Part shown: one piece after another, positions 19,743 to 24,064 of the stretch
Layout of the letters: each line of letters opens with the position of its first letter
How positions within the stretch are numbered: the first letter of the stretch is position 1
From: Parcubacteria group bacterium Greene1014_15
Lineage (GTDB): Bacteria > Patescibacteriota > Minisyncoccia > Phycocordibacterales > VMGT01
Length of the DNA: 41,623 nt
Direction of reading: 5' to 3'
NCBI GenBank assembly: GCA_007376725.1
Contig: VMGT01000016.1
Location: forward strand, 1-41,623
Translations under genes and position numbers: made by a program
Notes under the pieces: model-generated
The model's database searches: none
The model's input: the letters and a program-made list of their open reading frames with translations, nothing else
What the model was told of the DNA's origin: nothing

Positions 19743-19785
19743 CGGCCATGATTGCACACGTGCAGTCATGGCCGTTTTCTTAAAA
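19743..19785 (+). terminator. Rho-independent terminator overlapping the metK 3' end
   Basis: Stem CGGCCATGAtTGCAC/GTGCAgTCATGGCCG followed by TTTTCTT. The T tract overlaps the end of the convergent metK gene. Confidence 0.88.
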
Positions 19786-20871
19786 TGAAAATGAGAAGGC
19801 TTTTTCTTTTTCTTTTTCTGGCACCACAACAATCTCCTCCCATGGCAATCCTTTTTTGCCGAAGTGACCGTATGCGGCTGTCTTGCGAAAAATGGGGCGG
19901 CGCAAACCGAGTCGTTCAATGATCGCCTGGGGACGGAAATCGTATGCTTGTTTCGCTTGGTCAAGGATATTTTCTCCACGCTCATTGATTGCCTCTACCA
20001 TAACCGGTTCTGCGCGGCCGATCGCGTAGGCAACAGAAACAAGACACTCCTTTGCCAATCCTTCTGCCACAAATTGCTTCGCAACAAAACGTGACATATA
20101 TGCGGCAGAACGATCCACTTTCGTGCAATCTTTGCCTGAAAAAGCGCCACCGCCATGCGGTACAAGGCCGCCGTAGGTGTCAACAATAATTTTTCTTCCC
20201 GTCAAACCAGCATCCGCCGTAAATCCTCCTTTGACAAATGAACCTGTGGGATTTACTAAAATCTCAAGTCCTTTTACAAACCCAACAAGAGGAGTTATAA
20301 GCCGATCAATAAGAATTTCTCGAATTTCTTCCTGCGATACTTCTTGTGCATGCTGGCAACTTACCAAAATTGTCGCCACTTCACCGTCCATGATCGTCAC
20401 CTGCGCTTTACCATCCGGCCGAAGCCACGAAACTCCTCCTTTGCGGCGCAAATACTCAAGTCCTTTGGTCAAATTGTGCACGAGCACAACACCTTTCGGC
20501 AGATATTCAGGCGTTTCGTCCGTCGCATAGCCGTACATAATTCCCTGGTCTCCTGCTCCTCCGATGTCAACTCCCTGCGCTATGTCCCCCGATTGCTCTG
20601 CCACGTACACGATTATTTTGAGTCGATCCGTATACCCGATCGAATGATAGAGATCACGAGCAACTCGTTCATAATCAACATTCGCTTTTGTTGTAACTTC
20701 ACCGCCGATCACAAGAAGTCCATGGCTGCCAAATGTTTCAACTGCAACACGGCTATAGGGATCCTGTTCCAAACATGCATCAAGGATTGCATCAGAAATC
20801 TGATCGCACACTTTGTCAGGATGTCCCGATGTAACACTTTCTACGGTATATGTATTTGTCTTGTATAACAT
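19780..20871 (-). CDS. metK: S-adenosylmethionine synthetase
   Basis: Makes SAM from methionine and ATP. 363 residues: SGHPDKVCDQISDAILD (ATP/Mg site), GGEVTTKANVDYERVAR, GAGDQGIMYGYATDETPEYLP (signature 1), GGGAFSGKDCTKVDRSAAY (signature 2) and GRAEPVMVEA. The C-terminus is short and ends in a Glu/Lys-rich tail (KEKEKAFSFSF). There is no Shine-Dalgarno; the start is preceded by A/T-rich sequence. It has an unusually long 5' region with strong secondary structure (20919-21121), a likely place for SAM-dependent control. It provides methyl donor for, among others, the SET protein at 39.5 kb. Confidence 0.97.
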   Translation of the reverse strand: MLYKTNTYTVESVTSGHPDKVCDQISDAILDACLEQDPYSRVAVETFGSHGLLVIGGEVTTKANVDYERVARDLYHSIGYTDRLKIIVYVAEQSGDIAQGVDIGGAGDQGIMYGYATDETPEYLPKGVVLVHNLTKGLEYLRRKGGVSWLRPDGKAQVTIMDGEVATILVSCQHAQEVSQEEIREILIDRLITPLVGFVKGLEILVNPTGSFVKGGFTADAGLTGRKIIVDTYGGLVPHGGGAFSGKDCTKVDRSAAYMSRFVAKQFVAEGLAKECLVSVAYAIGRAEPVMVEAINERGENILDQAKQAYDFRPQAIIERLGLRRPIFRKTAAYGHFGKKGLPWEEIVVVPEKEKEKAFSFSF

Positions 20872-23425: not shown

Positions 23426-23513
23426 ATTTTTCTCCTTTCGTGGCAATCGTATTATGTATATCTCGACTATTTATATCACATTTCTGCAAAATACGAAATT
23501 CGGGAAATACAAA

Positions 23514-23906
23514 GGGCGTTATGCTTGATGAGTCCCTGGTATTCGCCAATTGGCGGACAGAGGCACATTAAGCATAACGCCCAAACGTTACATTCTTTGT
23601 TGTGAGAAAAGGGTATAAACTCAAAACACGGAACGTACCGTCTTGTTACTGGGATGTAGATCGATCCTAGTTTCTTGACTACCATTCTCCGGGTTGGCGA
23701 ATAGTATCTTTGCCATTTCTGGCATCAATCATGTGTGGATTTCTCGACACAGAGTGAGTTAGCGATACCATTCAGTCCCTGGGCAGTGATCTCTGCTGCT
23801 CGAATAGTAGAAGAACGTTAGGCACAACATACACAAGAGATGCGGTGTCGAAGACGCCGCTTTCTGCCTAAGGTTCCCCTACCATTAAAGATAGGAGCCC
23901 TTTTTT
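23514..23906 (+). ncRNA. Candidate structured non-coding RNA
   Basis: No credible gene lies here, yet the + strand is full of helices. A 69-nt hairpin closes GGGCGTTATGCTT with its complement (23514-23582). Further stems are ACTGGGAT/ATCCTAGT (about 23659), TGCCA/TGGCA (about 23713) and GCAG/CTGC (about 23788), plus a compound stem TTAGGCA/TGCCTAA around GCGGTGTC-gaa-GACGCCGC (about 23820-23870). TATTCGCCAA in the first hairpin is fully complementary to TTGGCGAATA 160 nt later. The stretch ends in a hairpin followed by T6. I do not see the conserved cores of RNase P RNA, tmRNA or SRP RNA. The strand is inferred from the terminator. Confidence 0.5.
23872..23906 (+). terminator. Rho-independent terminator of the candidate ncRNA
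   Basis: An interrupted stem, GGTTCC-CC-TA paired with TA-GGAG-C-CC, followed directly by six T residues. No protein-coding gene ends here on the + strand. Confidence 0.7.
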
Positions 23907-23997
23907 GTTTTCGGAAAGAACAAACAAGTGAACCCACGTCCACTTATGCATTTATGGTAGCAAAGATGGTATACTCGTCAAGAATATACCTGTGGAT

Positions 23998-24035
23998 AAC
24001 TCAAAAATCCCGCCAGTTGGCGAGACTTTTGAGTT
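23998..24035. terminator. Hairpin downstream of the membrane protein at 24065
   Basis: Stem AACTCAAAA..CGCCA/TGGCG..TTTTGAGTT, about 30 nt past the stop codon of the minus-strand gene at 24065-24415. It includes A/T runs usable in both directions. Confidence 0.7.
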
Positions 24036-24064
24036 ATTTCTAGGCTCTAATCTAGACTCTACCT

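Follow-up and report, generated by a model that had tools for sequence, protein, structure and literature searches.

We found that the window, a stretch of 41,623 nt that forms contig C11 of a 1.17-Mb genome (G000), carries a structured RNA that, as judged from sequence, is real, conserved and apparently undescribed and has two known members. The reading that we prefer, with a probability of about 0.6, is a standalone noncoding RNA gene on the minus strand, about 440 nt long, which would have its own promoter and 3' hairpin terminator and act in trans. The conservation, the structure, the preferred strand and the promoter- and terminator-like ends are all supported by sequence comparison. The second member lies at the same genomic position in a congeneric species (G001), whose contig was deposited as MAG isolate nzgw440.

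The surroundings are those of an ordinary chromosome, with ribosomal protein, EF-Tu/EF-G, metK, ClpP-like protease and DPBB transglycolase genes; the genomes of order-mates measure 0.4 to 1.1 Mb. The RNA locus sits between the 116-aa and DPBB genes on one side and a DUF5678/ClpP gene group on the other. The gene order in G001 is DPBB, 116 aa, RNA and ClpP. Only in the window do DUF5678 and a 136-aa ORF, neither of which had a match on the G001 contig, intervene between the RNA and ClpP. A first-pass annotation had described the interval from 23514 to 23906 as gene-free, and we likewise found no credible gene in it; a coding explanation is further disfavored because the indels relative to G001 measure 25, 17, 9, 5 and 1 nt. 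The ends given in that annotation had to be moved. On the left, conservation drops off where the 3' hairpin ends, and on the right it reaches about 24000, beyond 23906; the best placement of the RNA is 23947 to about 23505. Read 5' to 3' along the minus strand, the elements are, in order, a 5' hairpin, A6GGG, a 26-pair stem, a short hairpin, two GAAA-loop hairpins, a 12-pair hairpin, a hairpin with the loop CGAUCUAC, a long hairpin with the invariant loop UUUAUACCCUUUU, a terminator-like hairpin and TTTGTATTT. The features are as follows.

23989 to 24000, minus strand: GTTATCCACAGG, DnaA-box-like element directly upstream of the promoter, conserved in G001.
23954 to 23981, minus strand: promoter-like TTGACG, 16 nt, TACCAT, with TG ahead of the -10; consensus match, same layout in G001.
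23505 to 23947, minus strand: whole RNA, about 443 nt, conserved in G001, fold z of -7.55; 5' end placed from the promoter and 3' end from the terminator-like hairpin.
23926 to 23945, minus strand: 5' hairpin AAGTGGACGTGGGTTCACTT, all 20 bases identical in G001.
23898 to 23906, minus strand: A6GGG run, the complement of the invariant loop at 23607 to 23613 and putatively the 5' side of a pseudoknot.
23799 to 23889, minus strand: 26-pair stem with a variable tip; every pair holds in both species, with four one-sided G-U-type changes.
23725 to 23757, minus strand: hairpin with a GA-GAAA-TC tip.
23711 to 23724, minus strand: hairpin TGCCA-GAAA-TGGCA with a GNRA-type loop, invariant in both species.
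23677 to 23708, minus strand: 12-pair hairpin, pairing kept through three one-sided changes; alternative partner ACTGAATGGTATC, giving competing folds.
23648 to 23671, minus strand: hairpin with the loop CGATCTAC, one two-sided change.
23584 to 23642, minus strand: long 3' hairpin with the invariant loop TTTATACCC-TTTT, two two-sided changes, one of them from G-U to U-G.
23607 to 23613, minus strand: CCCTTTT, invariant loop that would form the 3' side of the pseudoknot with A6GGG.
23514 to 23582, minus strand: terminator-like hairpin of 13 G+C-rich pairs and then more; conserved stem, one two-sided change.
23513 to 23505, minus strand: TTTGTATTT, short U-rich tail after the terminator-like hairpin.

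Two observations concern the 116-aa membrane ORF (24415 to 24065) next to the locus. Its start is overlapped in another frame by a 65-codon ORF (MYESNNDYDF...ILRYGL; 24439 to 24239, minus strand), and both frames are open in the window and in G001. Over 190 nt, the DNA of this region had 88% identity to G001, the maximum of the shared block along with EF-Tu, and the two ORFs are possible overlapping genes. Past the 116-aa gene, a near-perfect inverted repeat at 23998 to 24041 (AACTCAAAAATCCCGCCAGTTGGCGAGACTTTTGAGTT) abuts the DnaA-box-like element; it is possibly the terminator of that gene, and its sequence is not kept in G001.

The RNA was 81% identical between the window and G001 across 430 aligned positions, and about 93% identical over a 187-nt core, while the adjoining proteins were about 51 to 74% identical. 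Windows of 190 columns across the core reached up to 87% identity, the 99th percentile of the block shared by the two genomes (median, 75%); the core is thus on par with EF-Tu and within the top 1% or so of 190-nt windows in that block. Substitutions were found at 22 of 240 paired positions (9%) versus 60 of 190 unpaired ones (32%). The first-pass annotation had counted at least six stems, and there are in fact more, folding well beyond dinucleotide shuffles on either strand (z of -7.75 when read on plus and -7.55 on minus). In a 120-pair consensus on the minus strand, 5 two-sided and 12 one-sided changes left pairing intact. The observed five two-sided changes were reached in 19 of 500 shuffles, with a consensus structure derived from the same two sequences (window and G001) that were used to test it; the covariation is thin because there are just two sequences. 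We propose that A6GGG pairs with the loop CCCTTTT as a pseudoknot: in G001, A6GGG is longer by one A and the partner loop by one T. The tip of the 26-pair stem carries insertions of 17 and 5 nt in G001.

The sequences AAUGGUAG and ACUAUUC each occur in two copies, permitting two competing arrangements. The window and G001 have different lowest-energy folds, and the cost of forbidding the favored arrangement was about 4 kcal/mol for the window and about 7 kcal/mol for G001. The two arrangements may form a switch or may merely reflect the limits of energy models. A 10-nt complement between TATTCGCCAA and TTGGCGAATA, reported earlier as a long-range pairing, is present in the letters of the window (about 23540 to 23549 and 23694 to 23703) but not as a pairing in G001, where the hairpin loop bearing TATTCGCCAATTGGCG is shortened and altered and TGGCGAATA is retained. 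This pairing is therefore coincidental or species-specific.

The first-pass annotation had read the RNA on the plus strand, from the hairpin at 23514 to a final hairpin followed by T6. We favor the minus strand because of the promoter, the consensus-structure energy and the G-U substitutions. On the minus strand, all 120 consensus pairs are standard in each of the two species; on the plus strand, 101 survive and 19 break. The consensus energy fell below that of column shuffles by a z of -12.2 on minus versus -8.7 on plus. It is true that the plus reading also beats shuffles and that some pair changes fit it (5 two-sided and 4 one-sided). However, comparison with G001 revealed neither a promoter nor other sequence conserved upstream of 23514 on that strand, and the final hairpin with T6 makes a poor plus-strand terminator: a terminator scan of that strand found none, and the loop region has a 25-nt insertion in G001. 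The T6 itself is the complement of the minus-strand A6GGG. A plus-strand RNA is therefore very unlikely.

The promoter-like hexamers on the minus strand are kept in G001 (TACCAT/TACACT preceded by TG), and the spacer has diverged. The pattern GTTATNCACAG-N2-16-TTGAC has exactly two sites in G000, both in the window and before two conserved RNAs (24000 to 23977 and 21191 to 21169, minus strand). G001 also has two sites, orthologous to these, and G002 has one, ahead of a 43-codon possible membrane-peptide ORF; a reversed-pattern control gave no matches. The pattern appears to be a rare promoter element resembling a DnaA box, which suggests that expression may be tied to DnaA or to another factor reading a DnaA-box-like site. 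Because of the DnaA box, an origin of replication was considered and rejected: no dnaA or dnaN was found among the genes searched, and there is no GC-skew turn at the locus. The same two results, together with strand-asymmetric G-U-type substitutions and the presence of one conserved box only, speak against a conserved DNA element for replication or protein binding, in which the inverted repeats would act as DNA. The adjoining DnaA-box-like site and the symmetrical hairpins would fit such an element, which we nevertheless hold to be highly improbable.

The other site lies before a second conserved noncoding block (21192 to 20920, minus strand), upstream of metK (19780 to 20871). This block, with a core of about 160 nt, was 78.5% identical to G001 at the DNA level. 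It has the same layout upstream, GTTATNCACAGG and TTGACA-16-TATCGT, and it is followed in both genomes by terminator-like sequence and then by metK. It gave no match to Rfam up to an E value of 5, was not found elsewhere in 397 genomes of the order, and had a fold z of merely -0.9. It is a candidate metK leader, possibly SAM sensing, or another noncoding RNA.

The position of the main RNA raises the alternative that it is a long 5' leader of DUF5678, the 136-aa ORF and ClpP (of ClpP directly in G001), with conditional termination at the 3' hairpin. The downstream genes are on the same strand and start about 60 to 80 nt past the hairpin with ribosome-binding sites, ClpP lies downstream in both genomes, and the conserved repeats would allow two competing arrangements. 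In G001, the 5' arm of the terminator can pair with sequence just upstream with a probability of about 0.8 to 0.99. The same upstream element also occurs before a second conserved RNA-like block ahead of metK, which lends the leader reading some weight. However, the first gene 3' of the RNA is DUF5678 in the window versus ClpP in G001, and no strong antiterminator was found in the window, where the 5' arm lacks a strong upstream partner (pairing probability of at most about 0.26). Attenuator hairpins are usually shorter than the terminator hairpin of this locus, whose length would be unusual for an attenuator; its U tract is short and interrupted. We consider a leader the main rival, possible but rather unlikely, and we favor a standalone RNA because the locus has promoter-like and terminator-like ends of its own and because the first downstream gene is not conserved.

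As the first-pass annotation had stated, the locus lacks the hallmarks of RNase P, tmRNA and SRP RNA, and no model of these matched there. A search of the whole window with the Rfam 15 covariance models brought no family to its cutoff, including OLE, ROOL, GOLLD, raiA, SRP RNA, introns, riboswitches and the other Rfam 15 families. Permissive settings over the surrounding 1.2 kb gave just microRNA-type matches to single hairpins, together with a few weak hits to leaders or small RNAs; the best, mir-44, scored 27 bits against a cutoff of 54 and covers the terminator hairpin alone. For RNase P RNA (RF00010), cmscan gave no match at the locus up to an E value of 10. The candidate of this genome is on contig C55 (9585 to 10063; L005; E value of 3e-18), with 60 bits versus the Rfam cutoff of 100, and is therefore divergent and easily missed. 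ARAGORN found no tmRNA (RF00023) in the window; the tmRNA is on contig C6, above cutoff. An Rfam check including RNase P and 6S models, proposed earlier, thus gave no credible match at the locus. 6S RNA (RF00013) had no match there or anywhere in the genome; it is likewise a free-standing bacterial RNA, but the locus RNA is more than twice as long as the 187 positions of the model and folds into many stems instead of a single long irregular hairpin with a central bubble. Long leaders and riboswitches with intrinsic terminators share a terminator-like hairpin just before genes and possible alternative folds; the locus RNA differs in lacking a conserved first downstream gene, an Rfam match and, in the window, a strong antiterminator. 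OLE, ROOL, GOLLD and raiA (PMC12286853) are large structured bacterial noncoding RNAs; like them, the locus RNA is hundreds of nucleotides long and lineage-restricted, with many stems, conserved loops, a probable pseudoknot and a probable transcription unit of its own. Unlike them, it has no model match and was found in one genus only, and at about 440 nt it is shorter than OLE (577 nt; PMC12286853). The literature search yielded these comparators (PMC12286853) and no description of the locus RNA.

A DNA search of 60 relatives found the RNA only in G001; a match in G004 was a chance match within a protein gene. A covariance model of the core detected only G000 and G001 among 397 genomes of the order, among 380 genomes of the phylum and, with the filters relaxed, among 39 close relatives. 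An exact 19-nt word matched only the G001 record in GTDB 220, three exact words gave no match in IMG/VR, and searches of phages and plasmids and distant blastn yielded no homologue. Synteny gave no further homologue because G002 lacks the DPBB and 116-aa neighbors. The earlier proposal to look for conservation and covariation in relatives was thus answered in part, with conservation and five two-sided changes in G001 but no homologue found beyond the genus. At the sensitivity used, the RNA is confined to one genus, with two known members; the model was built from two sequences and has limited reach, and "genus-restricted" therefore means "not detected beyond the genus."

The earlier suggestion that this is a large folded RNA of unknown type stands, in that the RNA is conserved, structured and outside Rfam. 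By analogy with other lineage-restricted large noncoding RNAs, it would be transcribed alone and fold into many stems, with a pseudoknot between A6GGG and the hairpin loop; as a stable structured RNA it would act in trans, probably together with a protein. That it represents a new class of ornate, pseudoknotted standalone RNA of about 440 nt, unique to the lineage, controlled through a DnaA-box-like promoter and switching between two conserved folds, is a doubtful proposition as a whole. Large structured RNAs beyond a few universal ones are rare. When a genome measures about 1.2 Mb, strong selection probably acts on an RNA of 440 nt with a core conserved like EF-Tu. With it, a reduced-genome lineage would gain an RNA family not described before, whose control could be approached through the other conserved RNA close by, which shares its promoter element.
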